Shown here: positions 9,783 to 49,735 of the stretch, one piece after another
Position numbering within the stretch: the first letter of the stretch is position 1
Layout: every line of letters starts with the position of its first letter
Translations under genes and position numbers: made by a program
Notes under the pieces: model-generated
Database searches by the model: none
What the model was told of the DNA's origin: nothing
Seen by the model: only the letters and a program-made list of their open reading frames with translations
Assembly (NCBI RefSeq): GCF_000717175.1
Contig: NZ_JNYD01000033.1
Coordinates: 1-62,280 of the forward strand
DNA from: Pseudonocardia autotrophica
GTDB lineage: Bacteria > Actinomycetota > Actinomycetes > Mycobacteriales > Pseudonocardiaceae
DNA: 62,280 bases
Direction: 5' to 3'

Positions 9783-10565
9783 TCACCCGCTCCGGCGGTG
9801 CCCCATCTCGCGGGAGATGGCGAGTCCCGTCGCCCGCACCACCTGTTCGTAGGCCTGCGGCCGCGCGCTCCCCGCGGGGACGACGACCGACACCGCGGCG
9901 ATCGTCCGCCCGGTCCGGTCGCGCACGGGCGCGGCGACCGAGGAGACGGGCGCGGGGCGGCGCCGGTCGAAGATCGCGACGCCCAGCCGCGGGACGTCGG
10001 CGAGCCGGCGGCGCAGCCGTTCCGCGGCGGCGGGCTCGAGGCTCCCGAGGTACCCGGCCCGCACCTCGGGCTCGGCCCCGGCCAGCAGCACGAGGCCGAC
10101 GCCGGTGTCGTGCAACGGCATCCGCCCGCCGACCCGGTACGCGATCTCCACCGCGCCGTGCGCCGAGAGCCGCTCCACGAGCAGCGCCTCCTCGCCCTCC
10201 CGCACCGCGAGCAGGACGTGCTGGCGCGACACCTCGTGCAGGTCCTCGAGGTGGGGCAGCGCCACCTCGCGCAGGCCGTGGCTGCGCGGCGCCAGCGAGG
10301 CGATCTCGAACAGCCGCAGGCCCACGACGTAGCGGCCCTCGTCGTCGCGTTCCAGGGCGCCCCACTCGACCAGCCGGCGGGCCAGGCGCAGCGTGGTGCT
10401 GGGCGGGGTCGCGGCCCGGCGGGCCAGCTCGGCCAGGCTCAGCGCCCGGTGCTCGGCGTCGAACGCCGCCAGCAGGGCCAGCGCACGCAGGACGACCGGG
10501 TCCCCCTGCAGGGGCTTCCTCCCCCGCCGCGGCGGCGCGTCCACGGTACGAGGATCGCATGCCAT
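9783..10565 (-). CDS. IclR-family transcriptional regulator
   Basis: 260 aa from ATG 10565. An N-terminal winged HTH (LSLAELARRAATPPSTTLRL, about residues 43-62) is followed by the IclR effector domain with LHDTGVGLVLLA and a C-terminal AAVSVVVPAG. IclR proteins typically control aromatic catabolic operons and bind aromatic or keto acid effectors. It is divergent from the flavonol-glycoside operon with an 89-bp gap and is the obvious local regulator. The 10566-10654 interval shows no clear palindrome, so the operator is not identified. Confidence 0.92.
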   Translation of the reverse strand: MACDPRTVDAPPRRGRKPLQGDPVVLRALALLAAFDAEHRALSLAELARRAATPPSTTLRLARRLVEWGALERDDEGRYVVGLRLFEIASLAPRSHGLREVALPHLEDLHEVSRQHVLLAVREGEEALLVERLSAHGAVEIAYRVGGRMPLHDTGVGLVLLAGAEPEVRAGYLGSLEPAAAERLRRRLADVPRLGVAIFDRRRPAPVSSVAAPVRDRTGRTIAAVSVVVPAGSARPQAYEQVVRATGLAISREMGHRRSG

Positions 10566-10654
10566 TCACTGGAACGCCCACGGACAACCGGTCGGCGGGC
10601 CCCCCATCCTGGGCCGCACGCCGGACCACCGACGATCCGACCCGGAGGACCTCG

Positions 10655-11203
10655 ATGACCCTGGAGTTCGCCACTCCCGCCGCGGGCGGCCCGCACTTCG
10701 CGCTGCCCGGCAAGCCCGTTCCGTTCTTCCTCGAGGCGGGCGAGGGCGAACGGGCCCACCTGTTCGACCAGCTCTTCACCGTGCTGCTGTCCGGCGACGA
10801 GACCGACGGCCAGTTCGGCGTGTTCACCATGGAGGCGCCGAAGGGGCAGGCGATCCCGGTGCACTCGCACGCGGCGGTCCACGAGATCTTCTACGTGCTC
10901 GACGGGAAGGTGCGCGTGGTCGTGGAGGACGCCGACGGCGTGCGCCACGACCGCCTGCTGACCAGCGGCGACTTCGGGTACGTGCCGGCCGGGCACCTGC
11001 ACACCTTCCGGGTGGAGTCGCACCGCGCCCGCACGCTCGGGGTGAACACCGGCGGGTTCGAGCGCTTCTTCGCCGCGGCGGGCGAGCGCACCGACTCCCG
11101 GATGCCGCCGGCGACGCCGGTCGTCCCCTCGCCGGAGCAGCTCGGGGCGGCCGCCCGCGAGTACCGGAACGACTTCCGCCACGATGTCCGCCTCCTCGAC
11201 TGA
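10655..11203 (+). CDS. queD: Quercetin 2,3-dioxygenase (QueD-type monocupin)
   Basis: 182 aa from ATG 10655 (GGAGG about 10644). Motif 1 reads PVHSHAAVHEIFYVLDG, giving the metal ligands H-x-H-x4-E, and motif 2 GDFGYVPAGHLHTF supplies the third His. The overall pattern (GKP, RAHLF, PKGQAIPVHSHA, LLTSGDFGYVP, GGFERFF) and the length follow the Streptomyces monocupin quercetinase. That enzyme opens the flavonol C-ring with O2, releasing CO and a depside. It is the first gene of the eight-gene operon and overlaps the next by 20 bp. Substrate range is inferred. Confidence 0.85.
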   Translation: MTLEFATPAAGGPHFALPGKPVPFFLEAGEGERAHLFDQLFTVLLSGDETDGQFGVFTMEAPKGQAIPVHSHAAVHEIFYVLDGKVRVVVEDADGVRHDRLLTSGDFGYVPAGHLHTFRVESHRARTLGVNTGGFERFFAAAGERTDSRMPPATPVVPSPEQLGAAAREYRNDFRHDVRLLD

Positions 11204-12071
11204 CGCCCCGGCCGGGCCGCCGCCGCTGCGACCGGCGCCGATCCCCGGACCGGAGCGGGCCGGCGGCGTCGCGACCCGGCGGGCCGTCGAGTACGCCGTC
11301 GTCCCCGGCTACCGCCCGCTGCTGCTGGACCTGCACCGGCCGGACACCACCGCGACCGTGCCCCTGGTGCTGTTCCTGCACGGCGGGGGCTGGCGGGTCG
11401 GCAGCCGCGCAGCGGTCGGTCCCGCGTTCGCCGACTGGGACCCGTCGCCGTTCGCGCGGCTGGTCGGAGCAGGGTTCGCCGTCGCCTCGGTCGACTACCG
11501 GCTCAGCGGCGAGGCCCGCTTCCCCGCCCAGCTCGACGACGTGGCCGCCGCCCTCGCCTGGCTGCGCGAGCACGCCGCGGAGCTCGGCCTCGACACCGGG
11601 CGCACCGCCGTGTGGGGCGAGTCCGCGGGCGGGCACCTGGCCGCCCTGCTCGGTCTCACCGAGCCGGGCGTGCGCGCGGTCGCCGACTGGTACGGCCCGT
11701 CCGACCTGGCCGCCCTGCCCGCGGACGCGGCCGCCACCGGCATCGCGGTCACCGACCCCGGTGCGCCGGACTCGCGCGAGGCCCTGCTGCTCGGTGCGCC
11801 CCCGCAGGCGGCGGCCGAGGTCGCCCGGGCCGCCTCCCCGGTCGCGCGGGTGCACCCCGCCGCACCCCCCTTCCTGCTGGTCCACGGCACCGCGGACCGG
11901 TTCGTCCCGTGCCGCCAGTCCGAGCGGCTGGCGGAGGCCCTCGCGGCCGCCGGGGCCCCGCACGACCTGCAGCTCCTCGAGGGCGCCGACCACATGTGGC
12001 TCGGCACGCCCGAGCACGCCCGGACCGCCTTCGACCTCACCCTCGACTTCCTCCGCCACCACCTGAGCTGA
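11184..12071 (+). CDS. Alpha/beta hydrolase (esterase/lipase, HGGGW type)
   Basis: 295 aa. The oxyanion motif LFLHGGGWRVG (about 65-75), nucleophile GESAGGHLAALLG (about 143-155), acid in VHGTADRFVP and His in GADHMW form a complete hormone-sensitive-lipase-like triad. The ATG lies inside the 3' end of the quercetinase gene, so translation is probably coupled. In context it is the best candidate for hydrolysing the depside produced by quercetinase into two phenolic acids. That role is inference from operon position. Confidence 0.88.
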   Translation: MSASSTDAPAGPPPLRPAPIPGPERAGGVATRRAVEYAVVPGYRPLLLDLHRPDTTATVPLVLFLHGGGWRVGSRAAVGPAFADWDPSPFARLVGAGFAVASVDYRLSGEARFPAQLDDVAAALAWLREHAAELGLDTGRTAVWGESAGGHLAALLGLTEPGVRAVADWYGPSDLAALPADAAATGIAVTDPGAPDSREALLLGAPPQAAAEVARAASPVARVHPAAPPFLLVHGTADRFVPCRQSERLAEALAAAGAPHDLQLLEGADHMWLGTPEHARTAFDLTLDFLRHHLS

Positions 12072-12140
12072 CCACCCACACCCGTCCCGCGCCGGCCGCC
12101 GGCCCGCGCGGCGATGCGCCCTGCCGCACACAGGAGAGCC

Positions 12141-13031
12141 ATGAGCACCGACCACGAGCTCGACCGCCTGCTCGGCGAGGTCCTCGCCCAGGTCCGCGCC
12201 GACGACCCGCGCCTCGCCGAGGTCGTCACCGGGGCCGTCCGCCACCTCCACGCCTTCGTCCGCGAGCTGCGCCCCACCGAGGAGGAGTGGCTGCGCGGCA
12301 TCGACTTCCTGGTCCGCGTGGGGCAGACCTGCACGCCCGAGCGCAACGAGCTGATCCTGCTGTCCGACATGCTCGGCCTGACCTCCGCCGTCGACGAGGT
12401 CAACCACGCCGGGCCCGCCGACGCCACGCCGTCGTCGGTCGAGGGTCCCTTCCACTCGCCCGCGCCCGCCCGGCCGCCGGGCGCCTGGATCGCCGACGGG
12501 CCGGAGCGCGCCCGCGCCGAGCAGATGGTGGTGCACGGGCGGGTCACCGACACCGAGGGCGTGCCGATCGCCGGCGCGACGGTCGACGTGTGGCAGGCCG
12601 ACGACGACGGCCGCTACGACACCCAGGACCCCGCCCAACCGCGCGGCAACCTGCGTGGGCTGTTCACCACCGGTCCGGACGGCGGGTACTGGTTCCGCAG
12701 CGTGCTCCCGGCCAGCTACCCGGTGCCGACCGACGGCCCGGTCGGCGAGCTGCTCACCGCGCTCGGCCGGCACCCGATGCGCCCCGCCCACGTGCACCTG
12801 CGGGTCGAGGCGCCCGGCCACCGCCCCGTGACCACCCACGTCTTCGTGGCCGACGACCCGTACCTCGACTCGGACGCGGCCTTCGCGGTCAAGGACGCGC
12901 TGGTCGTGACCCCGGTGCCGCGGACCGACCCCGCGGAGTCCGCCCGGTGGCAGGTCGACGGGCCGTTCCTGGAGTTCCCGTTCGACGTCCGGCTGGTGCC
13001 GGTGCGCGTGCCCGCGGCGGTGGCGCGGTGA
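12141..13031 (+). CDS. Intradiol ring-cleavage dioxygenase (hydroxyquinol/catechol 1,2-dioxygenase family)
   Basis: 296 aa from ATG 12141 (AGGAGAG just upstream). It has the N-terminal dioxygenase_N helical domain and the motif VDEVNHAGPADATPSSVEGP followed by FHSP. The Fe(III) ligands are Tyr in DGRYD, Tyr in LPASYPVPTDG and two His in MRPAHVHLRV. This is closest in pattern to hydroxyquinol 1,2-dioxygenases. It cleaves between vicinal hydroxyls of a polyhydroxybenzene. In this operon the likely substrate is a hydroxylated product of the flavonol A- or B-ring. The stop overlaps the next start (GTGA). Confidence 0.9.
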   Translation: MSTDHELDRLLGEVLAQVRADDPRLAEVVTGAVRHLHAFVRELRPTEEEWLRGIDFLVRVGQTCTPERNELILLSDMLGLTSAVDEVNHAGPADATPSSVEGPFHSPAPARPPGAWIADGPERARAEQMVVHGRVTDTEGVPIAGATVDVWQADDDGRYDTQDPAQPRGNLRGLFTTGPDGGYWFRSVLPASYPVPTDGPVGELLTALGRHPMRPAHVHLRVEAPGHRPVTTHVFVADDPYLDSDAAFAVKDALVVTPVPRTDPAESARWQVDGPFLEFPFDVRLVPVRVPAAVAR

Positions 13032-13858
13032 GGCTCGTCGGGCTGCGCGACGGCCGGGACGTGCTCGTCTCCCGTGTCCTCGGCGACCGGCTCACCCCGG
13101 TGGCCCAGGTCGACGACTTCTACGCCGACGTGCTGAAGTGGCGGGCGGCCGCGGCGGCGGTGACGGCCGGCGAGCGGCCGCTGGCCGGGGCGCGGCTCGC
13201 CCCGCCCGTGCCCGCCGCGGCGCGGGTCCTGTGCCTCGGCCTCAACTACCGCCGGCACGCCGAGGAGGGCGTCTACGGCGTCCCGGACCACCCGACGATC
13301 TTCGGCCGCTGGACGCGCTCGCTGACCGTCGGCGACACCCCGGTCCCGGTCCCGGCGAACGAACCCGGGCTGGACTGGGAGGGCGAGGTCGCCGCCGTCG
13401 TCGGGGATCGGCTGTCCGACGTCGACGCGGCCACCGCCGAGCGGGCCGTCCTCGGCCACGCCGTGGTCAACGACCTCACCGCCCGCACCGCGCAGAAGCT
13501 CACCGCCCAGTGGACGCTCGGGAAGAACGCCGACCGCAGCGGCCCGATGGGCCCGCTGGTCACCGTCGACGAGTCCGGCCCGCTCTCGACCGGGCTGCGG
13601 CTGACCACCCGGGTCAACGGCGAGGTGGTGCAGGAGGGCGACACCCGCGACCTGATCTTCGGCGTCGGCACGGTGTTGTCGCTGGTCAGCCGCACCCTGA
13701 CGCTCGAGCCGGGCGACGTGCTGCTCACCGGCACCCCCGAGGGCGTGGGCTACGTCCGGACGCCACCGCGGTTCCTGCGCCCCGGCGACGTCGTCGAGGT
13801 CGAGGTCGACCGCCTGGGCGTGCTCCGCACCCCGATCGTCGGGCCGGAGGAGCGGTGA
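13028..13858 (+). CDS. Fumarylacetoacetate hydrolase (FAH)-family protein
   Basis: 276 aa from GTG 13028. The C-terminal FAA_hydrolase domain shows the metal-binding acidic set in GLDWEGEVAAVVG and the conserved TLGKNADRSGPMGP, and ends LTLEPGDVLLTGTPEGVGYV. Family members hydrolyse acylpyruvates or decarboxylate/isomerise dicarboxylic ring-fission products. Placed between an intradiol dioxygenase and an FAD hydroxylase, it probably cleaves the ring-opened product. Coupled to both neighbours by 4-bp stop/start overlaps. Confidence 0.88.
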   Translation: MRLVGLRDGRDVLVSRVLGDRLTPVAQVDDFYADVLKWRAAAAAVTAGERPLAGARLAPPVPAAARVLCLGLNYRRHAEEGVYGVPDHPTIFGRWTRSLTVGDTPVPVPANEPGLDWEGEVAAVVGDRLSDVDAATAERAVLGHAVVNDLTARTAQKLTAQWTLGKNADRSGPMGPLVTVDESGPLSTGLRLTTRVNGEVVQEGDTRDLIFGVGTVLSLVSRTLTLEPGDVLLTGTPEGVGYVRTPPRFLRPGDVVEVEVDRLGVLRTPIVGPEER

Positions 13859-15465
13859 CGACCCGGTACCCGGTGCTGATCGCCGGCGGCGGGCCCAGCG
13901 GGCTGGCCGCCGCGATCGAGCTCGGCCGGGCCGGGGTGCGGTGCGCGGTCGTCGAGCCGCGCACCGAGGTCGCCGCCGACCCGCCCAAGGCGAAGACGAC
14001 CAGCGCCCGCACGATGGAGCTGTTCCGCCGGTGGGGCCTGGTCGACCGGGTCCGGGCGGCCGCGCCGCTGCCGGTCTCCTACGCCCAGGACGTCGTGTTC
14101 TGCACGCGGCTCGCCGGCCGCGAGATCACCCGCTTCCGCAACGCCTTCGGCCTCTACGCGGAGCGCCGCGACGAGCTCGCCGAGTGCGGCCAGCAGATCC
14201 CGCAGCCCGTCGTCGAGAGGGTGCTGCGGGAGGCGGTCGCCGCCCTGCCGACCGTCGACCTCCTGCTCGGCCACCGGCTGGTCTCCGCCGTCGACGGGCC
14301 GGACGGCGTGCGCGCCGCGGTCTCCGGGCCGGTCGGCGAGCGCGAGGTGCACGCGGACTACCTGCTGGGTTGCGACGGCGCGAACGGCGTGGCCCGCGCG
14401 GCGATCGGGGCGCGGTACGCCGGCGGCAGCGGCGCCCGACCCAACCTCAACGTCACCTTCCGCGCCCCCGGCCTCGGCGACGACCTGCTCTGCGCCCGCG
14501 CCGTGCACTACTGGGTCCTCGGCGCCGACGCCGGCGGGATCGTCGGGCGCGCCGACCTCGACGGCACCTGGTGGACCGTGGCGCAGAACGTGCCGCCGGG
14601 CACCGACCCGGTCGGGCTCGTGCGGCGGCTGATCGGCGCGGACGTGCCGGTGGAGGTGCGCGCGGCCGACCCGTGGGAGGCGCGGATGCTCCTCGTCGAC
14701 CGCTACCGGGGCAGGAGGACCTTCCTGGTCGGCGACGCGGCGCACCTCAACCCGCCGTGGGGCGGGCACGGCTACAACACGTGCGTCGGCGACGCCGTGA
14801 ACCTCGCCTGGAAGCTCGCCGCCGTGCTGCACGGGTGGGCGGGTCCGGCGCTGCTGGACAGCTACGAACCGGAGCGCCGGCCCGTCGCCCGGCAGACCAT
14901 CGACGACGCGGCCGCGCAGGAACCCCTGCTCGCGCACGCGTTCGCCCACCCCGACCTCGACGCCGCCGGGCCCGCCGGCGTCGCCCGCCGGGCCGCGGCG
15001 GCCGAGGCGCTGGCCGCCAAGCGCGGCGAGTTCCACAGCCTCGGTCTGGTGCTCGGCTACCACTACGCGGACTCCCCGGTCGTGGTCGACGACGGCTCGC
15101 CGGTCCCGACGCACGAGCCGCTGCGCTACCACGGTTCGCCCCGCCCCGGGGCCCGGCTGCCGCACCGCTGGCTGGCCGACGGGTCGTCGCTCTTCGACCA
15201 CCTCGGCCCCGGGTTCACCCTGCTCCGCCTCGATCCCCGCGCCGACGCCGGGCCCTTCACCGCCGCGGCCGCCCGGACCGGGGTGCCGCTGACCCTGCTC
15301 GACGTGCCCGGCACAGCCGACGCCTACGGCGCACCGCTGCTGCTGGTCCGGCCGGACCAGCACGTCGCCTGGCGGGGGTCCGACGCCCGGCACGCCGCCG
15401 CCGTCCTCGACCGCGCCCGCGGCGCCTCCCACACCTCCCACCCCACCCCGGCGCTCGCCGGCTGA
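13855..15465 (+). CDS. FAD-dependent aromatic hydroxylase (MhpA/PheA/TfdB family)
   Basis: 536 aa from GTG 13855. FAD-binding motif LIAGGGPSGLAAAIELGRAG, the DG motif LLGCDGANGVARAAIG (about 170-185) and the GD motif RRTFLVGDAAHLNPPWGGHG (about 284-303) define a group A flavoprotein monooxygenase. The C-terminal thioredoxin-like domain of phenol hydroxylase-type enzymes follows. It should hydroxylate a phenolic ring, supplying the vicinal diol needed by the intradiol dioxygenase. The precise phenol (phloroglucinol carboxylate, protocatechuate or other) is not determined. Confidence 0.9.
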   Translation: MTTRYPVLIAGGGPSGLAAAIELGRAGVRCAVVEPRTEVAADPPKAKTTSARTMELFRRWGLVDRVRAAAPLPVSYAQDVVFCTRLAGREITRFRNAFGLYAERRDELAECGQQIPQPVVERVLREAVAALPTVDLLLGHRLVSAVDGPDGVRAAVSGPVGEREVHADYLLGCDGANGVARAAIGARYAGGSGARPNLNVTFRAPGLGDDLLCARAVHYWVLGADAGGIVGRADLDGTWWTVAQNVPPGTDPVGLVRRLIGADVPVEVRAADPWEARMLLVDRYRGRRTFLVGDAAHLNPPWGGHGYNTCVGDAVNLAWKLAAVLHGWAGPALLDSYEPERRPVARQTIDDAAAQEPLLAHAFAHPDLDAAGPAGVARRAAAAEALAAKRGEFHSLGLVLGYHYADSPVVVDDGSPVPTHEPLRYHGSPRPGARLPHRWLADGSSLFDHLGPGFTLLRLDPRADAGPFTAAAARTGVPLTLLDVPGTADAYGAPLLLVRPDQHVAWRGSDARHAAAVLDRARGASHTSHPTPALAG

Positions 15466-15498
15466 TCCCGACCGGTCCACCAGCAAAGGAGCTCGGAG

Positions 15499-16797
15499 AT
15501 GACCACCTCACCGCTCGAGGGCACCGGGGCGCCCGGCACCCGCACCCCGGAGTCCGTGCCGACCTGGACGAACCCGCGCCGCGGCTTCCTGTTCTTCCTC
15601 GGCGTCGCCGCGATCGGCGCGGCCATGGCGAACCTGGTCCCGCTCGTCCTGACCCTGTCCCTCAAGGCCACGGTGATCGACCCGGCGAACGCCACCTCGA
15701 TCCTGTCCGTGGTGGTGGCCGTCGGGTCGGTGTTCTCCCTGGTCGCGTTCCCGGCGCTCGGCCGGCTCAGCGACCGGACGACGAGCCGGCTCGGCCGGCG
15801 CCGCCCGTTCCTGCTGGCCGGTGCGGTGCTCGTGCTGCTCGGCGCGCTGGGCACCGTCGTCGCCGGGAGCACGCCCGTGCTCGCGCTGGCCGGGATCCTC
15901 ACGCAGGTCGGCTTCAGCGCGTCGATGGTGGCGTGCACCGCCGCCATCCCGGACCAGTTCGCGCCGGACCGCCGTGGCCCGGCCTCGGCGATCGTCGGGC
16001 TGAGCCTGCCGGTCGGCGCGGTCGTCGGGCTGTTCCTGGCGCAGCTGTTCGCGCCGAGCCTGCCGCTGATGATCCTGGTCCCGGCCGCGGTCGGTGCCCT
16101 GGGCTCGCTCCTGTTCGCCGCCGTGCTGCGCGACCGCCGGATCACCGCCGCCGAGCGGCCCCCGTTCGACTGGCGGGCCTTCCTCGGCACCTTCTGGGTC
16201 AGCCCGCGGCGCAGCCCCGACTTCGCCTGGGCGTGGGCCAGCCGGCTGCTGCTGTTCCTCGGCGTGGCCGCCGTGCAGGCCTACCAGGCGTTCTACCTGA
16301 TCGCGGTGCTGCACTTCGCCCCTGCGGAGGTGGCCGGCGCGGTGTTCCTGTCGACGCTCGTGCTGACCGCCGCCGCCCTGCTCTTCGCCCCCGTCGCGGG
16401 CAAGGTCTCCGACCGGATCGGCCGCCGCAAGCCGTTCGTCATCGGCGCCGCGGTGATCTTCGCCGTCGGGCTCGCGCTGGCGTCCGTCGCGCAGAGCTTC
16501 CCGGCCTTCCTCGTGGCGATGGGCGTGATCGGGCTGGGTCAGGGCGTGTACTTCGCGGTGGACATCGCGCTGGTCACGCTGGTGCTGCCGGACCCCGCCA
16601 ACCCGGCCAAGGACCTCGGGATCATGAACCTGGCGAACACGTTGCCGTCGACGATCGTGCCGGCGGTCGCGCCCGCCGTGCTCGCGGTGGGCGCGAGCGC
16701 CGCGCACCCGCAGAACTTCACGGCGCTGTTCCTCTTCGGCGCCGTCGCCGGGCTCCTCGGTGCGCTGCTGATCCTCCCGATCCGGGGCGCCCGGTGA
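15499..16797 (+). CDS. MFS transporter (GPH/SUC-like sugar or glycoside permease)
   Basis: 432 aa from ATG 15499 with AAAGGAG upstream. About 12 hydrophobic helices; the loop 2-3 signature appears as GRLSDRTTSRLGRRRPFLLA and again as GKVSDRIGRRKPFVIG in the second half. The doubled R-x-GRRRP motif is typical of sucrose/glycoside-type MFS symporters. Position between aromatic-ring genes and two glycosidases suggests import of the glycoside or aglycone. Its stop overlaps the start of the GH1 gene. Confidence 0.85.
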   Translation: MTTSPLEGTGAPGTRTPESVPTWTNPRRGFLFFLGVAAIGAAMANLVPLVLTLSLKATVIDPANATSILSVVVAVGSVFSLVAFPALGRLSDRTTSRLGRRRPFLLAGAVLVLLGALGTVVAGSTPVLALAGILTQVGFSASMVACTAAIPDQFAPDRRGPASAIVGLSLPVGAVVGLFLAQLFAPSLPLMILVPAAVGALGSLLFAAVLRDRRITAAERPPFDWRAFLGTFWVSPRRSPDFAWAWASRLLLFLGVAAVQAYQAFYLIAVLHFAPAEVAGAVFLSTLVLTAAALLFAPVAGKVSDRIGRRKPFVIGAAVIFAVGLALASVAQSFPAFLVAMGVIGLGQGVYFAVDIALVTLVLPDPANPAKDLGIMNLANTLPSTIVPAVAPAVLAVGASAAHPQNFTALFLFGAVAGLLGALLILPIRGAR

Positions 16798-17972
16798 CCC
16801 GGTTCCCCGAGGGCTTCCTGTGGGGTGCGGCCACGGCGGCGCACCAGGTGGAGGGCGGCAACGTCGGCAACCACTACTGGGAGTGGGAGCACGACCCGCA
16901 CGGCCCCTTCGCCGAGCCCAGCGGCGACACCTGCGACCACTACCACCGCTGGGCCGAGGACCTCGACCTGCTCGCCGCGGCCGGGCTCACCGCCTACCGG
17001 TTCAGCCTGGAGTGGAGCCGCATCGAGCCCGAGGAGGGCGAGATCTCGCGGGCCGCGCTCGACCACTATCGGCGGATGGTCGCGGGCTGCCGCGATCGCG
17101 GGCTCGCCCCCGTGGTCACGTTGGCGCACTTCACAATGCCCCGCTGGATGGCCCGCGACGGCGGCTGGACCGGGCCGAAGGCGGGCGACCGGTTCGCCCG
17201 GTTCACCGAGACGGTGCTGCCGGTCGTCGCCGACGCCGGGTACGTCTGCACGGTCAACGAGCCGAACCTGATGGCCTGCATGCCCGTCCTGGCCGCGACG
17301 GCCGCGCGCGGAGAGCGGGTCGGCGGGCTGCCGCGGCCCGACCAGGAGACGGCCGAGGCCCTGCTCGAGCTGCACCGGCGGGCCCGCACCGTGCTCCGCG
17401 ACGGCGGCGCCCCGCCCTCCGGCCTCACCCTCGTCGGGCAGGAGTTCCTGGCCGAGGACGGCGCGGTCGAGGAGATGGCGGCGCACCGCGCGGCCATGGA
17501 GGACCAGTTCCTCGCGGCCGCGGCGGACGACGACTTCGTGGGGCTGCAGGTCTACAGCTGCGCCCGGATCGGCCCGGACGGCCCCGTAGCCCCGCCCGAC
17601 GACCTGCGCACGCTCGCGGACATGGAGTACCGGCCGGGCGCGCTCGGCGCGGCGGTCCGCCGGGCCGCCGAGGTGCTGCCCGGGACACCCCTGCTGATCA
17701 CCGAGAACGGCATCGCCACGGCCGACGACGCGCAACGCGTCGCCTACACCGAGGGCGCGCTGCGCAGTCTGCACGCCGCGATGGCCGACGGCGCGGACGT
17801 CCGTGGCTACCTGCACTGGAGCCTGCTCGACAACTTCGAGTGGTTCGCGGGCTACCGGCCCACGTTCGGGCTGGTCGCGGTGGACCGCAGCACCTTCCGC
17901 CGCACCCCGAAGCCGAGTCTGGCGTGGCTGGGCCGCGTCGCCCGGGCCAACGCCCTCGGAGCCGAGGCATGA
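16794..17972 (+). CDS. Glycoside hydrolase family 1 beta-glucosidase
   Basis: 392 aa from GTG 16794, slightly short for GH1 (usually about 440-480). N-terminal signature FLWGAATAAHQVEGG, the acid/base glutamate in TVNEPNL and the nucleophile glutamate in LITENGIA (about residue 304) are all present, with HWSLLDNFEW near the end. No signal peptide, so it acts on imported glycoside. In this operon it would remove the glucose left after rhamnose removal. ATGA-coupled to the rhamnosidase gene. Confidence 0.92.
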   Translation: MTRFPEGFLWGAATAAHQVEGGNVGNHYWEWEHDPHGPFAEPSGDTCDHYHRWAEDLDLLAAAGLTAYRFSLEWSRIEPEEGEISRAALDHYRRMVAGCRDRGLAPVVTLAHFTMPRWMARDGGWTGPKAGDRFARFTETVLPVVADAGYVCTVNEPNLMACMPVLAATAARGERVGGLPRPDQETAEALLELHRRARTVLRDGGAPPSGLTLVGQEFLAEDGAVEEMAAHRAAMEDQFLAAAADDDFVGLQVYSCARIGPDGPVAPPDDLRTLADMEYRPGALGAAVRRAAEVLPGTPLLITENGIATADDAQRVAYTEGALRSLHAAMADGADVRGYLHWSLLDNFEWFAGYRPTFGLVAVDRSTFRRTPKPSLAWLGRVARANALGAEA

Positions 17973-20677
17973 CCGTCCCGACCCGGCTGCGCCTGGAGCA
18001 CCTCCCGCCGGGCCAGGCCTGTGGCGCCGCGCGGCCACGCGGCTCGTGGCGGCTGCCCGCCGGCACGGCCGCGCAACAGGCCTACGCGGTGCGGATCTCG
18101 GGGCCGGACGGGCCGGTGTGGGAGTCCGGGCGCCGCGCGGGCGGCGGGTCGGCCCTGGTCGACCTCGACGTGCCGGCGGAGCTGACCGGACGCCCCGCCA
18201 CCGCCGATCCCCTGACCTGGCAGATCCGGGTGTGGACCGACCGCAGCGCGAGCGGCTGGTCGGAGCCCGCGCCGTGGACGAGCGTGGCCCTCTTCCCCGG
18301 CCTCGACGCGGCGGTCTGGATCGCGCCGCACGAGCCGGAGCCCGCTGCGCCCGGCTCGCGGCCCGCACACCGGCTCCAGCACTCCTTCACCCTCGCCGCG
18401 GCACCGGCGGCCGCGGTCGCCTGGGCCACCGCGCACGGCATGTACGAGCTGTTCGTCAACGGGCACCGGGTCGGCGACGCCGAGCTCACCCCCGGCTTCA
18501 CGGCCTACCGCACCCGGCTGCAGGTGCACGCCCACGACGTCACGCGCCTGCTGCGGGCGGGCGCCAACGACCTCGAGATCCTGCTGTCCGACGGCTGGTA
18601 CCGGGGCCGGCACGGGTTCGAGCGCCATGCCGACGGCTACGGCACCCGCACCGCCGCACTGCTCGCGCTGGACCTGCGGCTCCCCGGCGGGGACACCCGC
18701 ACGGTCACGACGGGCCCGGACTGGTGGTCGCGCCCGAGCGGGATCATCGCCGACCTGATGGACGGCCAGCACACCGACCTGCGCGCTCCGGCCCCCGGCA
18801 GCCGGCGGGACCCCGCCGATCCGGCCTGGCGACCCGCACCGGTGACCGACCGTCCCGCCGCCCGGCTGGAGCTGCCGGTGGCCCCGCCGGTCCGGGCCGT
18901 GGAGGAGCTCGCGCCCGTCGCGCTGCACCGCGTACCCGGCGGGACCGTCGCGGACTTCGGCATCAACCTCAACGGGTGGGTCCGCCTCGCGGACCTCGGT
19001 CCGCGCGGGACCGTCGTGACCCTCACCCACGGCGAACTGCGCGACGACGCCGGGCGGGTCACCACCGAGAACCTGCGCGCCTTCGACTTCGCCACCGGGG
19101 AGCGGCTGCCCGCGGGCCAGGTCGACACCGTCACCGCGGCGGGCCGGCGCGGGGAGACCGCCGAGCCGCGGCACACCACGCACGGCTTCCGGTACGTGCA
19201 GGTCGACGGCCGTCCCGACCTCGCCGCCGACGACCTCCGCGCCGTCGTCGTCCACAGCGACCTGCCGCGCACGGGCTGGTTCCGCTGCGGCGACCACCGC
19301 CTCGAGGCGCTGCACGAGGCCGCCGTCCGAAGCTTCCTCGGCAACGCCTGCGACATCCCCACCGACTGCCCGCAGCGCGAGCGGTCGGGCTTCACCGGCG
19401 ACTGGCAGGTCTTCGCCGACGCCGCCGCCTTCACCCACGACGTGGCCGGGTTCGGGGACAAGTGGTTGCGGGACCTGGCCGCGGACCAGCGCGCCGACGG
19501 GCGGGTGCCGACGATCGTGCCCGACCCGGCCGACCCGGCGGGCGGCGCGGCCACGCTCGCCATGGACGGCTCCGCCGGCTGGGGCGACGCCGCGGTGATC
19601 GTCCCGTGGACGCTGTGGCGGGCCTACGGGGACCGGGACCTGCTGGCCCGGCAGTACCCGTCGATGGTGCGGTGGGTCGGGTACGCCGCGGGGTGTGCAG
19701 GCTCGCGGCGTCACCCGGACCGCGCGGCCGCCAGGCCCACGCCGGCGCCGCACGAGGAGTTCCTCTGGGACACCGGCTTCCACTTCGGCGAATGGCTCGA
19801 GCCCGGCGAGGTCCCGGACCTCGACCCGGCGCGGGACCACGGGATCGTCGCCACCGCCTACCTCGCGCGCTCGGCCCGGCTGCTGAGCCGGATCGCCGGG
19901 CTCCTCGGCCGCGACGACGACCGGGTCCGCCACGACCGGCTCGCCGACGCCGCCCGGGATGCGTGGCAGCGCGAGTACCTGTCCGCGGACGGTGAGCTCG
20001 CCGTGCCGACGCAGGCGAACCACGTCCGGGCTCTGGCGTTCGATCTGGTGCCTCCGCACGTGCGCTCGGCGGTGGCAGACCGGCTGACCGGCCTGCTCCG
20101 GGCGAACGACCACCACCTGGCCACGGGCTTCCTCTCCACCGGCCTGCTGCTCCCCGTCCTCGCCGACACCGGCCACCTCGACGAGGCCTACCGGGTCCTG
20201 TTCAGCCCCGGCGAGCCGTCCTGGCTGGGCATGATCGACCGCGGCGCCACCACGATCTGGGAGAACTGGGCCGGGCCCGACGACCCCCGCGGCCCCGGCT
20301 CGCTCAACCACTACGCCAAGGGCGCGGTGATCGGCTTCCTCCACCGGTACGTCGCCGGGATCCGGCTGCCCGAGGACCCCGGGCCGGAGGCGGCGGGGTA
20401 TCGCCGGTTCGTGGTCGCCCCGCAGCCCGGCGGCGGCCTGACCTGGGCCGACGCCACCCACGACAGCCCGAACGGGCGCATCCGCAGCGCCTGGCGGCGG
20501 GACGCCGACGGGCTGCTCGTGGACGTCGAGGTGCCGCCCGGGACCCGGGCGGAGATCCGCCTGCCCGACGGCCGGGTGGTCGACGCCGGGCCGGGCCGGC
20601 ACGTGCACCGGTGCGGGAGCTACGCCGCCTCGGTGGAGCGGACCGTGAGCACGTGCAGGGTGCGCTCGCCCCGGTAG
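17969..20677 (+). CDS. Alpha-L-rhamnosidase (GH78)
   Basis: 902 aa from ATG 17969. It has the N-terminal Bac_rhamnosid_N jelly-roll (YELFVNGHRVGDAELTPGFT), a central concanavalin-like module and the (alpha/alpha)6 catalytic domain with DIPTDCPQRERSGFTGDWQV (about 463-482), which carries catalytic acidic residues, and TTIWENWAGPD. No signal peptide, so cytoplasmic like the GH1. It would remove terminal rhamnose from rutinosides. The 3' end overlaps the convergent TauD-like gene by 58 bp. Confidence 0.95.
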   Translation: MTVPTRLRLEHLPPGQACGAARPRGSWRLPAGTAAQQAYAVRISGPDGPVWESGRRAGGGSALVDLDVPAELTGRPATADPLTWQIRVWTDRSASGWSEPAPWTSVALFPGLDAAVWIAPHEPEPAAPGSRPAHRLQHSFTLAAAPAAAVAWATAHGMYELFVNGHRVGDAELTPGFTAYRTRLQVHAHDVTRLLRAGANDLEILLSDGWYRGRHGFERHADGYGTRTAALLALDLRLPGGDTRTVTTGPDWWSRPSGIIADLMDGQHTDLRAPAPGSRRDPADPAWRPAPVTDRPAARLELPVAPPVRAVEELAPVALHRVPGGTVADFGINLNGWVRLADLGPRGTVVTLTHGELRDDAGRVTTENLRAFDFATGERLPAGQVDTVTAAGRRGETAEPRHTTHGFRYVQVDGRPDLAADDLRAVVVHSDLPRTGWFRCGDHRLEALHEAAVRSFLGNACDIPTDCPQRERSGFTGDWQVFADAAAFTHDVAGFGDKWLRDLAADQRADGRVPTIVPDPADPAGGAATLAMDGSAGWGDAAVIVPWTLWRAYGDRDLLARQYPSMVRWVGYAAGCAGSRRHPDRAAARPTPAPHEEFLWDTGFHFGEWLEPGEVPDLDPARDHGIVATAYLARSARLLSRIAGLLGRDDDRVRHDRLADAARDAWQREYLSADGELAVPTQANHVRALAFDLVPPHVRSAVADRLTGLLRANDHHLATGFLSTGLLLPVLADTGHLDEAYRVLFSPGEPSWLGMIDRGATTIWENWAGPDDPRGPGSLNHYAKGAVIGFLHRYVAGIRLPEDPGPEAAGYRRFVVAPQPGGGLTWADATHDSPNGRIRSAWRRDADGLLVDVEVPPGTRAEIRLPDGRVVDAGPGRHVHRCGSYAASVERTVSTCRVRSPR

Positions 20678-21440
20678 CCGTCCCGCCCGTGCAGGAACCG
20701 GTAGTTGTCCAGCACGAACAGGTCGCCCGCGTCGAGCCGGAAGCGCGGGGCCACCTCCATCGCGGTGGCCAGCGCGTCCGCGTACCGCTCGATCAGCTCG
20801 AGGTGCCGGTCCCACTCCGGCTCGCGCGGGACCGGGGCCGCGTAGTCGCTCGCCCGCACCACCCGGCGGCCGGCGCGGGTGTACTCGACCAGCCGCCGCA
20901 CCAACGGGGTTCCCGGCACCCCTCGAGCCGGGTTCACCCAGGTGCCGAAGTAGTCGACGTCCGTGCCGACGAGGAAGTCGTGCACCTCGCGCAGTTCGGG
21001 CTCACCGGCGGTCCGCAGCGCCTCGACCAGCGCGTACCCGTCGATCAGCACGGAGTCGCCCCCGTCGTCGGCCGCCCTGCCGCACAGCATGAGCAGCCAG
21101 TCCTCGTCCGGGTCCCGCAGCCGGACGGACCGGCCGTGCACGTCGACCACGACGTTCGCCCCGTCCGAGTGCAGCCCGAGCGGAGGCGCGTCGGGCCCGC
21201 CCTGCGGCCGGATGCCGAAGAGCTCGCGGAGGCGGCCGCCGAGCGCGGTCGCGGCCGCGTCGACCAGCCGCTCGGGGTCCGTGGCGTGGCGTAGCCGGCG
21301 ACGATCGCCGCGCCCGCGGCCGCGAGGCCCGCGCGCAGGTCGGTCACCACCGGCGGGACGCGGCCGACGCCGCCGAGCGTCTCCTTCCACTCCGGCCGGA
21401 CCTCGCCGTGCCGCCGCCCGCCCGCATTCGTGACCGCCAC
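20620..21440 (-). pseudogene. TauD/TfdA-family dioxygenase, frame-disrupted
   Basis: The C-terminal 220 residues carry the HxD pair (LHSDGANVVVDVHG) and the distal His/Arg region (YRFLHGRDGYRGERTLHVLT) of Fe(II)/2-oxoglutarate oxygenases. The N-terminus (VRPEWKETLGGVGRVPPVVT, then DLRAGLAAAGAAIVAGYAT) is in another frame. The frames meet near 21290, where one extra base would restore GYA-T-A-TDPERLVDAA. Start taken as GTG 21440. The gene follows the ABC permease genes by 36 bp on the same strand. It is either a genuine pseudogene or a single-base sequence error. Confidence 0.75.
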
Positions 21441-21476
21441 CCGGAGCCCCTTTCGCAAGTTACTGGCAGGAGCACC

Positions 21477-22262
21477 CTATCGGCCGGAACACCGCGACTC
21501 CAGCCTCCGGCCGAGCAGCGTGACGGCCAGTGACACCGCCACGACCGCCACGGCGGGCACCAGCACGAGCTGCGGGGCAACGAACAGGTACTGCCGCCCC
21601 TCGGCGAGCATCGCGCCCCATTCCGGGGTGGGCGGCTGGGCCCCGAGCCCGAGGAACGAGAGCCCGGCGAGCGAGAGCAGCACGTTCGCGAACCGCAGGC
21701 AGGCGTGCGCCGTCAGCGGACGCAGCGCGTTGGGGAGGATGTGCCGCACCGCGATCCGGCCGGGCCCGGCGCCCAGCGCGACCGCCCCCTCCACGTACTC
21801 GCGGGCCCGTTCCCGGACCGTGAGCTGGTAGGCGAGCCGGGCGAACGGCGTCCAGCCGGTGAGCAGCACGGCGATCAGCAGGGTGCTCGGCCCGGGTTCG
21901 CGGACCGCCGCCACGACCAGGCCGACGATCACGGTCGGGATCGCCACCAGGACGTCGAGCGTGCGTTGCAGGAGCTGCCCCACGACCCCGCCCGCGTAGC
22001 CCGCGACGATCCCGAGCAGCGTGCCGACCGCGGCACAGGCCAGCACCGCGACCAGGGTGAACCACACGGACAGGCGGGTGCCGACGAGCAGCCGGGCCGC
22101 GACGTCCCGGCCGAGGTTGTCCGTGCCGAGCGGGTGGGCGAGGGAGGGCTCGGCGAACCGGTCGGACAGGTCGGTGGTGAGCGCGTCGACCGGCAGCAGC
22201 GCGGCCACCACCAGCAGCCCGGCGAGCACCGCGAACGCGACGAGCACGGGATCGCGCCTCAC
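21477..22262 (-). CDS. ABC transporter permease (DppC/OppC type)
   Basis: 261 aa from GTG 22262, which overlaps the stop of the upstream permease. SLAHPLGTDNLGRDVAARLL is the hallmark N-terminal segment of DppC-like permeases, and the EAA loop reads EYVEGAVALGAGPGRIAVRH, followed by ILPN. About six membrane helices. It forms the inner-membrane channel with the DppB-type partner. No ATPase gene lies nearby, so the energising subunit must be encoded elsewhere. Confidence 0.92.
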   Translation of the reverse strand: MRRDPVLVAFAVLAGLLVVAALLPVDALTTDLSDRFAEPSLAHPLGTDNLGRDVAARLLVGTRLSVWFTLVAVLACAAVGTLLGIVAGYAGGVVGQLLQRTLDVLVAIPTVIVGLVVAAVREPGPSTLLIAVLLTGWTPFARLAYQLTVRERAREYVEGAVALGAGPGRIAVRHILPNALRPLTAHACLRFANVLLSLAGLSFLGLGAQPPTPEWGAMLAEGRQYLFVAPQLVLVPAVAVVAVSLAVTLLGRRLESRCSGR

Positions 22263-23203
22263 ACCTCCACCTCCGCCCGGGCCACGGGATCCAGGGCGAG
22301 CTGCAGCAGCTCGGCGGCGACCCCCGCCAGCACCGCCACCGCGACCACGGCCAGCAGCCCGGCCTGCAGCATCGGCAGGTCCTGGGCGGTCACGGCGTCG
22401 TAGAGCAGCCGGCCCAGCCCGGGGATCCCGAACGCCACCTCGACCACCACCGCGCCGCCGAGCAGGCCGGCGAAGAACATCCCGGAGAGCGCCGTGACGC
22501 CGGTCAGCGCCAGCCGCGCCCCGTGCCGCCAGAGCAGCTGCGATCCGCCTACCCCCTTGGCGAGGGCGACGGCGACGTGCGGGCGGGAGAGGGCGTCGAC
22601 CGTCTCCGCACGGGCGAGCTGGGCAGCCAGCGCGACCGGGAACGCGGCCAGGGTCAGCACCGGCAGCACGGCCTGCGCGGGCGTGCCCCAGCCGGTCGCC
22701 GGGAACAGCGGCACCGCGACCGCGAGCAACAGCACCAGCAGCGGCGCGAGCACGAACTCCGGCACGGCCACGCCCAGCACCGAACACCCGGTGACCACCC
22801 GGTCCAGCACGCCGCCCGGGCGTCGGGCCGCCCGAACGCCGAGCGGGATCCCGACCACCGCGGCGACCAGCAGCGCGAGCGCCGCCAGCACCACCGACAC
22901 CCCGAGCGCCGCCGCGAGCTGCGGCGCGATCGCCGTGCGGGTGGCGTACGAGACGCCGAGGTCCCCGGTGAGCGCGTGGCCGAGCCAGCGCAGGTACTGC
23001 TCCGCCCACGAGCGGTCCAGGCCCAGCTCGGCCGCCACCCGCGCGGCCACCGCCGGGTCCGGCTCGGCCTCCGCGACACGGCCGCGCAGCACCGCCCGGA
23101 CGGTGTCGACGCCGGCCAGCCGCGGCAGCAGGAAGATCAGCAGCGAGGCGCCGAGCAGGACCGCCGGCAGGGTCGACAGCCGGCGCGCGAGGGTGCCGCC
23201 CAC
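22259..23203 (-). CDS. ABC transporter permease (DppB/OppB type)
   Basis: 314 aa from GTG 23203, which begins immediately after the stop of the lipoprotein gene. N-terminal RRLSTLPAVLLGASLLIFLL and WLGHALTGDLGVSY are DppB signatures; the EAA loop is HVAVALAKGVGGSQLLWRHG. Six predicted membrane helices. Works with the adjacent DppC-type permease in the peptide/opine/nickel importer family. Confidence 0.92.
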   Translation of the reverse strand: MGGTLARRLSTLPAVLLGASLLIFLLPRLAGVDTVRAVLRGRVAEAEPDPAVAARVAAELGLDRSWAEQYLRWLGHALTGDLGVSYATRTAIAPQLAAALGVSVVLAALALLVAAVVGIPLGVRAARRPGGVLDRVVTGCSVLGVAVPEFVLAPLLVLLLAVAVPLFPATGWGTPAQAVLPVLTLAAFPVALAAQLARAETVDALSRPHVAVALAKGVGGSQLLWRHGARLALTGVTALSGMFFAGLLGGAVVVEVAFGIPGLGRLLYDAVTAQDLPMLQAGLLAVVAVAVLAGVAAELLQLALDPVARAEVEV

Positions 23204-24769
23204 TCAGCCGGTGCGGGTCAGCTCGGGCGTGACCAGCGACTTCGCCAGCGGGTCGACGGTGTACCCGGAGACGCCCCTGGTCACCGCGTTCTCCTGCGAG
23301 TGCACCAGCGGCAGGCCCACGGCGTCCGCGGTCAGCTTCGCCGCCGCGGCTCTGAACACCTCCTGGCGTTGCGCAGGGTCCGTGGTCGTGGCCAGCGGAG
23401 CGAGGAGCGCGTCGTACTCCGCCGAGCAGTACCGGTTGATGTTGTACGAGCCGGCGCAGGAGTAGTCCGTGACCAGCGTGGACCCGGTGTCCGGCACGTC
23501 GGTGAGGTAGTTGCGGGACAGCAGGAACATGTCGTAGCGGCCGGCCAGCAGCTCCGGCTCCTGCGGCCCGTACTCGGCGATCCGGATCTGCGCGTCGACG
23601 CCGACCTCGCGGAGCATGCCCTGCACCGCGGTGGCGAGCGTGGGCAGCTCGGAGCGGTTCGGGTAGGTCTGCAGCCGCACGGTCAGCGGCCGGTCCGGGC
23701 CGTAGCCGGCCTGGGCGAGCAGATCCTTCGCGGCCTGCAGGTCCGGCGCGGGCGGCGGGCCCTGGCTGCCCCAGGCGACCGCCGGACCGTAGAGCTCCGA
23801 CGCCGGCACGGCCGACCCGGCCAGCGCCTGCTCGGCCAGTGCGGTGCGGTCGATCGCCCTGGCGACGGCCTGCCGCACCCGGATGTCGGAGAAGGGCGCG
23901 GCGGACTGGTTGAGCATCAGCGAGACGGTCCGCGGGGCGGCGACGGTCTGGTCGTCGTAGCCGCTGTCGGGGGTGAACTCGAGCAGCGCGGACTCGGGCA
24001 GCCCCTGGGCGACGTCGACGTCCCCGGCCCGCAGCGCCAGCGCCCGGGCCGCCGGGTCGGTCACGTACCGCACGCTCACCTTCGCCAGCTGCGGCCGCCC
24101 GCCCCAGTAGGCGTCGTTGCGCTCGAGGGTGGCCGACTGGGTGCCGTTCGCGGCGACCAGCTTCATCGGCCCGGTCCCCGTCCCGACGGCGGCGGGCGGG
24201 CCGCCGGTGTACGCGGACGGGGCGAGGATCGCGGTGTTCACGCTGCTCAGCCGCAACGGCAGGATCGGGTCCGGCTCCGCCGTCGTGATCGCGACGGCGG
24301 CCGGGCCGTCCTCGGCGACCTGCAGCCCGATGCCTTTGATCGCCCGCGGCGGGGCGGCGACGCCGGCGACCCAGGACAGCGCGGTGACCACGGCCGCGGG
24401 GGTGAGCGGGGTGCCGTCGTGGAAGGTGACGCCGGGCCGGAGCTCGAACCGCCACGTGCGCGGGTCGGTGGTCTGCGCCCAGGAGGTCGCGAGGCCGGGC
24501 TGCGGCGTGCCGTCCGGCCCGGCCTTCACCAGCGCCTCGGCCGACCCCAGCTGCGCGAGGACGAACGCGTCGTCGGTGTCCATCGCGTAGCCCGAGCGCG
24601 GCGCGAACTGGGCGGCCAGGCGGAGCTCGCCGTCCGGCACCGGGGTGCCGGTCGGCGTCGCGCCGGACCCGCAGGCGGTGACGAGACCGACCAGGGCGAC
24701 GACCGCGAGGGCGACGCCGGGCCGGACACGGGCGCGCCGGCCCGGACGGGGCAAGGTGGGGCGGGGCAT
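23204..24769 (-). CDS. ABC transporter substrate-binding lipoprotein (SBP family 5)
   Basis: 521 aa from ATG 24769. A lipoprotein signal peptide (basic start, VALAVVALVGLVTACGSGA; the Cys of the lipobox is about residue 33) is followed by an SBP_bac_5 domain with RTWRFELRPGVTFHDGTPLT. The family binds peptides, nickel complexes, opines or oligosaccharides outside the membrane. The first gene of the SBP-permease-permease-TauD operon. The ligand is not deducible. Confidence 0.92.
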   Translation of the reverse strand: MPRPTLPRPGRRARVRPGVALAVVALVGLVTACGSGATPTGTPVPDGELRLAAQFAPRSGYAMDTDDAFVLAQLGSAEALVKAGPDGTPQPGLATSWAQTTDPRTWRFELRPGVTFHDGTPLTPAAVVTALSWVAGVAAPPRAIKGIGLQVAEDGPAAVAITTAEPDPILPLRLSSVNTAILAPSAYTGGPPAAVGTGTGPMKLVAANGTQSATLERNDAYWGGRPQLAKVSVRYVTDPAARALALRAGDVDVAQGLPESALLEFTPDSGYDDQTVAAPRTVSLMLNQSAAPFSDIRVRQAVARAIDRTALAEQALAGSAVPASELYGPAVAWGSQGPPPAPDLQAAKDLLAQAGYGPDRPLTVRLQTYPNRSELPTLATAVQGMLREVGVDAQIRIAEYGPQEPELLAGRYDMFLLSRNYLTDVPDTGSTLVTDYSCAGSYNINRYCSAEYDALLAPLATTTDPAQRQEVFRAAAAKLTADAVGLPLVHSQENAVTRGVSGYTVDPLAKSLVTPELTRTG

Positions 24770-24982
24770 CGAGGCCTCCCTGGTCGCGACCCTGGTCTCG
24801 GCACCGTGGGCCGGCTTCGTGGCCGGCACGGCGCCGGGCCGGCAGGCGCCGCCGGGCCGCCGAGATCGTCCGTGCATCGGAACAAGCTGTCAATCATGTG
24901 CATCGACCTGCATGAATGCCGCACCGATGATCGCTCGGGTCCCCTATCGCGTCTCCACTGCAAATGCTAGTAATGGGCGGTT
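24770..24982. other. Divergent intergenic region, ABC operon / MFS gene
   Basis: 213 bp without a supported gene. The 24890-24970 stretch is unusually AT-rich for the window (TCAATCATGTGCATCGACC, CTGCATGAATGC, TGCAAATGCTAGTAATG), as expected for promoters of both divergent units. Imperfect TGCAT repeats are present, but no clear operator could be assigned. Confidence 0.5.
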
Positions 24983-49626: not shown

Positions 49627-49735
49627 GGGTTCCTCCTCGACGGCGGCGCTGGTCGCGCCACCGTCGCCCCGCGGGACGGGAGCGGCATCACCCGCCGCGA
49701 ACGATCCCCCTCGGGCACGCCTCTAGGCTCCGGGC

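Follow-up and report, generated by a model that had tools for sequence, protein, structure and literature searches.

The window analysed here is the whole 62,280-nt stretch of Pseudonocardia autotrophica contig NZ_JNYD01000033.1, and its positions 9783 to 20677, for which gene starts and stops were recomputed, hold a predicted operon for the catabolism of flavonol glycosides. Eight plus-strand genes (10655 to 20677) run divergently from an IclR-family regulator gene (Table 1). The divergent gap between the regulator and the quercetinase gene QueD is 89 nt, and the gaps within the run, from QueD to GH78, are -20, 69, -4, -4, 33, -4, and -4 nt, a spacing that suggests co-transcription. All nine proteins exceed the curated Pfam cut-off of the named family. 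Coordinates, gaps, and Pfam results thus agree with the tight run of eight genes described in a first-pass annotation of the sequence, and in profile and BLAST comparisons GH78, GH1, QueD, and the hydroxylase each matched the family given there. The transporter, described there as a sugar-type MFS protein, does belong to the MFS, with both models over their cut-offs, but it matches the general model MFS_1 (124.8 bits) better than the sugar-type MFS_2 (44.9 bits).

Table 1. Genes of the predicted operon and its divergent regulator gene, in window coordinates
Predicted product	Position	Strand	Evidence
IclR-family regulator	9783-10565	-	PF01614 and PF09339 over Pfam cut-off
QueD-type monocupin quercetinase (flavonol 2,4-dioxygenase, predicted)	10655-11203	+	Full-length match to solved QueD
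HGGGW alpha/beta-hydrolase (BD-FAE), predicted depside esterase	11184-12071	+	PF20434, 172.7 bits
Intradiol ring-cleavage dioxygenase (IDD), predicted 1,2,3,5-tetrahydroxybenzene dioxygenase	12141-13031	+	PF00775 and PF04444
FAH-family hydrolase, predicted acylpyruvase-like on ring-fission product	13028-13858	+	PF01557, 201.9 bits
FAD-dependent aromatic-ring monooxygenase (FMO), PRK06126 subfamily	13855-15465	+	NF004780, PF01494, PF21274
MFS transporter, predicted intact-glycoside importer	15499-16797	+	PF07690 and PF13347; substrate from position only
GH1 beta-glycosidase	16794-17972	+	PF00232, 223.5 bits
GH78 alpha-L-rhamnosidase	17969-20677	+	PF17389, PF08531, PF17390, PF05592, PF25788

The start of QueD is most likely the one in Table 1, since the earliest possible start, 10559, falls within the IclR gene. 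A codon-model gene caller also returned the nine genes; as it was trained on these genes, its agreement is not independent proof, and independent support for their reality comes from the recurrence of the same families side by side in diverged genomes. Proteins identical to those of the window occur in Pseudonocardia halophobica VKM Ac-1069 (L004); the window thus belongs to that species or to a close relative of it, and the two may be the same genome.

Quercetinase and its partner genes

A neighborhood search had been proposed in the first-pass annotation, and similar gene sets do recur in other actinobacteria, so that the window operon represents a cluster type seen repeatedly. The comparison covered 80 QueD loci, the best 80 of 90 found, with a fetched flank of up to 10 kb around each QueD. 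Counts depend on a gene caller trained on the window genes and on the clustering thresholds (38% identity, 60% length), and the genomes counted are related to one another. Within the family of the window, QueD is rare (3 of 150 genomes, its own included). One contig labeled Stenotrophomonas maltophilia (L074) bears an actinobacterial-type QueD cluster and is probably a contaminating contig.

Positions 1 to 177 of the QueD query align with the solved structures 5fli and 5flh (E value of 1.5e-44); we take PDB entries 5fli, 5flh, and 5flj to be the Streptomyces nickel quercetinase QueD. The catalytic roles of the residues named below are in part presumed. H70, H72, E77, and H116 are invariant in 29 aligned sequences, the window's among them, and correspond to the 3His/1Glu site of the characterized Streptomyces quercetinase, for which H69, E76, and H115 are named (PMC4416304). 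Both proteins are monocupins of similar length with the same site. That account covers the enzyme alone, and its text nowhere has the words operon or gene cluster or the stem catabol. Given this strong homology, we predict that the cupin is a quercetinase that would release CO and a depside from a flavonol. The first-pass reading of the locus as a pathway for flavonol glycosides gains support from the full-length QueD homology together with the conserved neighborhoods in the 80 loci.

The esterase keeps its HGGGW and GESAG motifs, and the IDD its residues Y159, Y193, H217, and H219. In 71 of the 80 loci the gene called directly after QueD encodes an esterase of this sequence cluster; in 72 such an esterase gene lies on the same strand and starts within ca. 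1.3 kb of QueD (in L021 with one gene between). When tblastn is included, an esterase-like match lies near QueD in 76 loci, four of which (L020, L079, L082, and L083) had been missed by gene calls or clusters; L039 ends just past QueD, and tblastn of the locus gave no esterase match at QueD in L008, L019, or L028. Such a partner is to be expected if the product of the quercetinase is hydrolyzed, and neighborhood and chemistry together suggest that the depside, 2-protocatechuoyl-phloroglucinol carboxylate, is the esterase substrate. The sequence cluster of the IclR protein is represented in 44 of the 80 loci, and this regulator probably controls the operon.

Both catalytic Glu motifs of GH1 (TVNEP and ITENG) are intact, as are DCPQRERSGFTGD and TTIWENW in GH78. 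The closest solved relative of GH1 is SGR_2426 (8kap; E value of 6.3e-121), and solved relatives of GH78 are 3w5m and 6gsz. GH78 matches PF17389 at 311 bits, with four further GH78 domains over cut-off; it reaches 512.6 bits against the equivalog NF041573 (rhamnosid_Stmyc; cut-off, 1720) and is therefore classed as GH78 only. Likewise, GH1 scores 242 bits against the beta-glucosidase equivalog TIGR03356 (cut-off, 478.5) and is classed as GH1 only. Inspection of the N termini by eye revealed no obvious secretion signal in either glycosidase, which, with an MFS gene present, suggests import before deglycosylation.

Genes for the use of released sugars are found at some loci. Rhamnulokinase-like genes occur in 4 of 80 (the one tested scored 440.9 bits; cut-off, 528), L041 has a RhaD-type gene that exceeds its cut-off although truncated by the locus end, and L053 has galK/galT-type genes. 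In the window's own genome, RhaD (rhamnulose-phosphate aldolase) scores 1061 bits, over cut-off. Nine Geodermatophilaceae loci (L036, L039, L041 to L043, L049 to L051, and L056) have IlvD/Edd-type dehydratase and DHDPS-type aldolase genes, only the latter in L056, perhaps for non-phosphorylative breakdown of the released sugars.

Alternation of the intradiol dioxygenase with DUF3500

The FMO exceeds the cut-off of NF004780 (PRK06126; 592 bits versus 445), a model named hypothetical protein, and is found in 34 of the 80 QueD loci (a partial 35th match at the end of L045 was left out). Beside it stood an IDD in 8 loci, a DUF3500 protein in 20, and neither in 6; no locus had both. The 20 loci with FMO and DUF3500 (PF12006; 339 bits in the one of the 20 scanned) all belong to Geodermatophilaceae, while the IDD clusters come from Pseudonocardiaceae, Streptosporangiaceae, Streptomycetaceae, and one unclassified actinobacterium.

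The same exclusion held at the genome level. Fifty of the 80 genomes were searched whole with PF12006, FMO, and IDD, giving 31 FMO genes (at least 57% identity) in 30 genomes, with neighbors scored within 12 kb and DUF3500 counted as strong at 300 bits or more. IDD lay near 11 of these FMO genes and strong DUF3500 near 14; none had both, and 6 had neither. Four of these six genomes (G002, G021, G024, and G041) have a strong DUF3500 elsewhere, with a divergent FAH gene one gene away, 76 to 86% identical to the FAH of DUF3500 loci and, in the one tested of the four, separated from it by a GntR-type regulator. The fifth (G030) has a separate IDD-FAH-FMO cluster elsewhere (L096), and the sixth (G004) is without IDD or DUF3500. 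In two genomes (G014 and G026) IDD lies beside FMO and a strong DUF3500 elsewhere. Among weaker FMO matches (41 to 56%), a strong DUF3500 lies within 12 kb of those in G042 and G017, and the other typed ones have neither nearby. FAH adjoins DUF3500 in 21 of 25 cases and is one gene further in the remaining 4. Because IDD and DUF3500 are unrelated and never found together beside the same FMO and FAH, they are best read as catalyzing one and the same step on a shared substrate.

On a tree of the 34 FMO proteins, the labels IDD, DUF3500, and other required 5 changes (shuffled mean, 9.3), with L005, L027, L030, and L058 labeled DUF3500 from the genome search; taken singly, IDD required 3 changes and DUF3500 4. 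A recount with genome-wide labels (L038 as IDD) gave 4 changes, or 3 without the long-branched L056. With in-locus labels only, the swap between IDD and DUF3500 needed 2 changes, or 1 without L056. At least one replacement of one by the other is shown, and several are likely; since the change count depends on genome-derived labels, repeated swapping is not claimed as an established result.

Several observations concern DUF3500 itself. A structural model of the protein at L049:12394-13638 (m8541200e6b92) has strong fold similarity to ApmL, labeled a dehydratase of amipurimycin biosynthesis, a likeness that conflicts with the published label of putative dioxygenase. Of 14 control genomes, only Corynebacterium glutamicum had a DUF3500 protein over the family cut-off. 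At least one copy was present in 40 of the 50 genomes searched, many scoring below those of the QueD clusters.

Sixteen further QueD loci hold a gene from two SDR clusters, and in 15 of these there are also two FAH genes; 30 of the 80 have no FMO, IDD, DUF3500, or SDR-cluster gene within the flank. The 15 make up a third cluster type (L057, L061 to L063, L066 to L069, L072, L073, and L075 to L079) from Microbacteriaceae, Demequina, and others, in which QueD-esterase is joined by the FAH pair and by one or two SDR genes; most also have a weak CMD-like protein and IclR/LysR regulators, and no FMO, IDD, or DUF3500 was found within these loci.

Proposed route and its alternatives

Homology supports the predicted quercetinase, GH78, GH1, esterase, intradiol dioxygenase, FAH-family enzyme, and aromatic FMO; neighborhoods and chemistry point to the order in which they might act. 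The MFS transporter would import the intact flavonol glycoside, for example a quercetin rhamnoside, and GH78 and GH1 would strip rhamnose and glucose in the cytosol. QueD would cleave the flavonol C-ring to CO and the depside, from which the BD-FAE esterase would produce 2,4,6-trihydroxybenzoate and the acid of the B-ring, which is protocatechuate in the case of quercetin. That acid would enter a protocatechuate pathway whose genes lie elsewhere in the genome. The FMO would hydroxylate and decarboxylate 2,4,6-trihydroxybenzoate to 1,2,3,5-tetrahydroxybenzene or, alternatively, hydroxylate phloroglucinol arising by spontaneous decarboxylation. IDD would open 1,2,3,5-tetrahydroxybenzene between vicinal hydroxyls to 2,4-dihydroxymuconate, that is, 2,4-dioxoadipate (malonylpyruvate; C6H6O6), and from this an acylpyruvase-type hydrolysis by FAH would, by deduction, give pyruvate and perhaps malonate. 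We consider it probable that this is a flavonol-glycoside operon with an A-ring route through 1,2,3,5-tetrahydroxybenzene, ring opening, and FAH hydrolysis. The broader proposal of a flavonol-fed bacterial 1,2,3,5-tetrahydroxybenzene pathway with interchangeable ring openers (the Glu101 IDD group or DUF3500) and a common FAH step to pyruvate and malonate we put at even chances.

The first-pass annotation had the lower genes processing one ring, without naming it; that part stands, and the data favor the A-ring (phloroglucinol carboxylate). Hydrolysis of the depside gives a B-ring acid and 2,4,6-trihydroxybenzoate. As the A-ring is constant, while the B-ring acid depends on the flavonol and can be handled by general pathways, dedicated lower genes fit the A-ring. 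Pca-type genes occur in 7 of the 80 QueD loci and 4-hydroxybenzoate-hydroxylase (pobA)-type genes in 7, both in 5; in the one set of four tested, PcaH and PcaG exceeded their NCBIfam cut-offs, the hydroxylase exceeded one of its two, and PcaB narrowly missed its own.

Three other explanations were weighed. The lower genes might instead act on the B-ring, with the FMO converting protocatechuate to hydroxyquinol and IDD, as a hydroxyquinol 1,2-dioxygenase, yielding maleylacetate. The nearest solved relatives of IDD are indeed hydroxyquinol dioxygenases, and related genomes also encode hydroxyquinol-type enzymes 50 to 56% identical to it. The hydroxyquinol pathway shares with the window operon an intradiol dioxygenase of the same branch, and the operon also has an FMO. 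That pathway, however, has a maleylacetate reductase where the operon has FAH and group-specific IDD residues. At 10 places taken from 18 full-length matches in this identity range, a maleylacetate-reductase-like gene was present in 9 (four called by Pfam, all of the Fe-ADH family, and the other five by similarity to those four) and FAH adjoined none, whereas FAH adjoins IDD in 13 of 13 cases (8 from the 80 QueD loci and 5 fetched). A blastp comparison (E value of 1e-20) detected no such reductase-like gene in the gene calls from the 80 QueD loci, and none lies alongside IDD in the five fetched loci. The two groups are separated at 18 alignment columns, with at most one exception each, three of them forming an insertion; the discriminating IDD residues include E101, Y183, V195, and R221. 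E101 aligns with a Phe in 1tmx, at a position that we take to line the active site; since catechol dioxygenases carry Glu there, E101 marks a difference from the hydroxyquinol enzymes and is no proof of a new substrate. With protocatechuate 3,4-dioxygenase present in the own genome (pcaH; 348.8 bits, over cut-off), we find the B-ring explanation unlikely.

FAH might otherwise serve released rhamnose as a 2,4-diketo-3-deoxy-L-rhamnonate hydrolase rather than ring fission. Its top NCBIfam model is that hydrolase (NF053535, 2,4-didehydro-3-deoxy-L-rhamnonate hydrolase), and GH78 would supply the rhamnose, but the score is 155.6 bits (148 to 174 in five relatives) against a cut-off of 500, FAH accompanies IDD or DUF3500 also where the flank is without GH1 or GH78 (L014, L015, and L033), and the own genome encodes RhaD of the rhamnulose-phosphate route. 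We consider this explanation very unlikely. Finally, the cupin substrate might not be a flavonol, and the operon might degrade another plant phenolic glycoside ester. Cupins are functionally diverse, and GH1 or GH78 lies in the flank of only 41 of the 80 loci (both in 17); the linkage of cupin and glycosidases that the first-pass annotation relied on is therefore common but not obligatory, which is a caveat. Against a different substrate are the full-length match and intact ligands relative to solved QueD, the esterase as the next gene, which fits depside hydrolysis, and lower genes that would fit the phloroglucinol unit, and we judge it improbable.

The A-ring route finds a counterpart in fungi. 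In the accounts consulted, 1,2,3,5-tetrahydroxybenzene belongs to a central pathway of Aspergillus that is fed from gallate and called fungal-only in reviews (PMC13094099, PMC12388069), and the DUF3500 protein AN10530 of A. nidulans, a putative dioxygenase, is proposed to convert it to 5-hydroxydienelactone (PMC12388069). This lactone would equal the C6H6O6 intradiol product minus one water. DUF3500, which came here from neighborhood alone, is therefore independently tied to the compound that the chemistry predicts. The fungal pathway has the same proposed central intermediate, and sister actinobacterial clusters carry DUF3500 as the ring opener; the window operon differs in having IDD in place of DUF3500, followed by FAH. 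As it has no DUF3500, we propose a similar mode of operation and not identity with the fungal pathway.

Further genes bear on the products. The separate IDD-FAH-FMO cluster of Pseudonocardia nigra (L096) continues with an MFS gene (best match an aromatic-acid symporter model, under cut-off) and then with genes for a family III CoA-transferase and an AccA/AccD-like carboxyltransferase. After IDD-FAH in Nonomuraea zeae (L098) come a gene of the methylmalonate-semialdehyde-dehydrogenase type, over cut-off, and a CoA-transferase gene like that of L096; the best models of both CoA-transferases are dicarboxylate-type, under their cut-offs. On contig C10 of the own genome, genes for the CoA-transferase (83% identity) and a carboxyltransferase (62%) adjoin each other, and the predicted pair fits, without proving, a malonate product. 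It also encodes a molybdenum CO dehydrogenase large subunit (G000:C12:19374-21641; 1305 bits; cut-off, 991), a possible sink for quercetinase-derived CO.

Flanking genes, novelty, and significance

Beyond the operon, a minus-strand TauD-family gene overlaps the end of GH78 by 58 nt, and next to it lie the genes of a peptide-type ABC transporter, SBP_bac_5 and two permeases (region 20620 to 24877). At 47812 to 49629 the window has a GH15 family glycosidase with a trehalase-like N-terminal domain.

The first-pass impression that no single bacterial operon of this kind had been described agrees with the literature searched, mostly without subscription journals, in which we found no description of such an operon or of a bacterial aerobic tetrahydroxybenzene route. 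In passages of two further papers, phloroglucinol appears in anaerobic routes or references only (PMC11153144, PMC13039779), and in a third the subject comes up in the reference list alone (PMC12366328). An isoflavone catabolism gene cluster from the soybean rhizosphere is also a bacterial cluster for flavonoid catabolism (PMC11069340). The operon probably joins known enzyme families in one linked pathway, the lower part of which has so far been described only in fungi.

In the literature searched, the bacterial quercetinase is an isolated enzyme, and we came across no description of genes for the aerobic breakdown of the flavonol A-ring in bacteria; the operon offers a route, open to experiment, that would lead from the glycoside into central metabolism. 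For DUF3500, a family of unknown function, the alternation with a known dioxygenase class suggests a bacterial role. The proposal also names genes to seek in soil and plant-associated microbiomes and, if true, would mean that actinobacteria share a central aromatic pathway with fungi.

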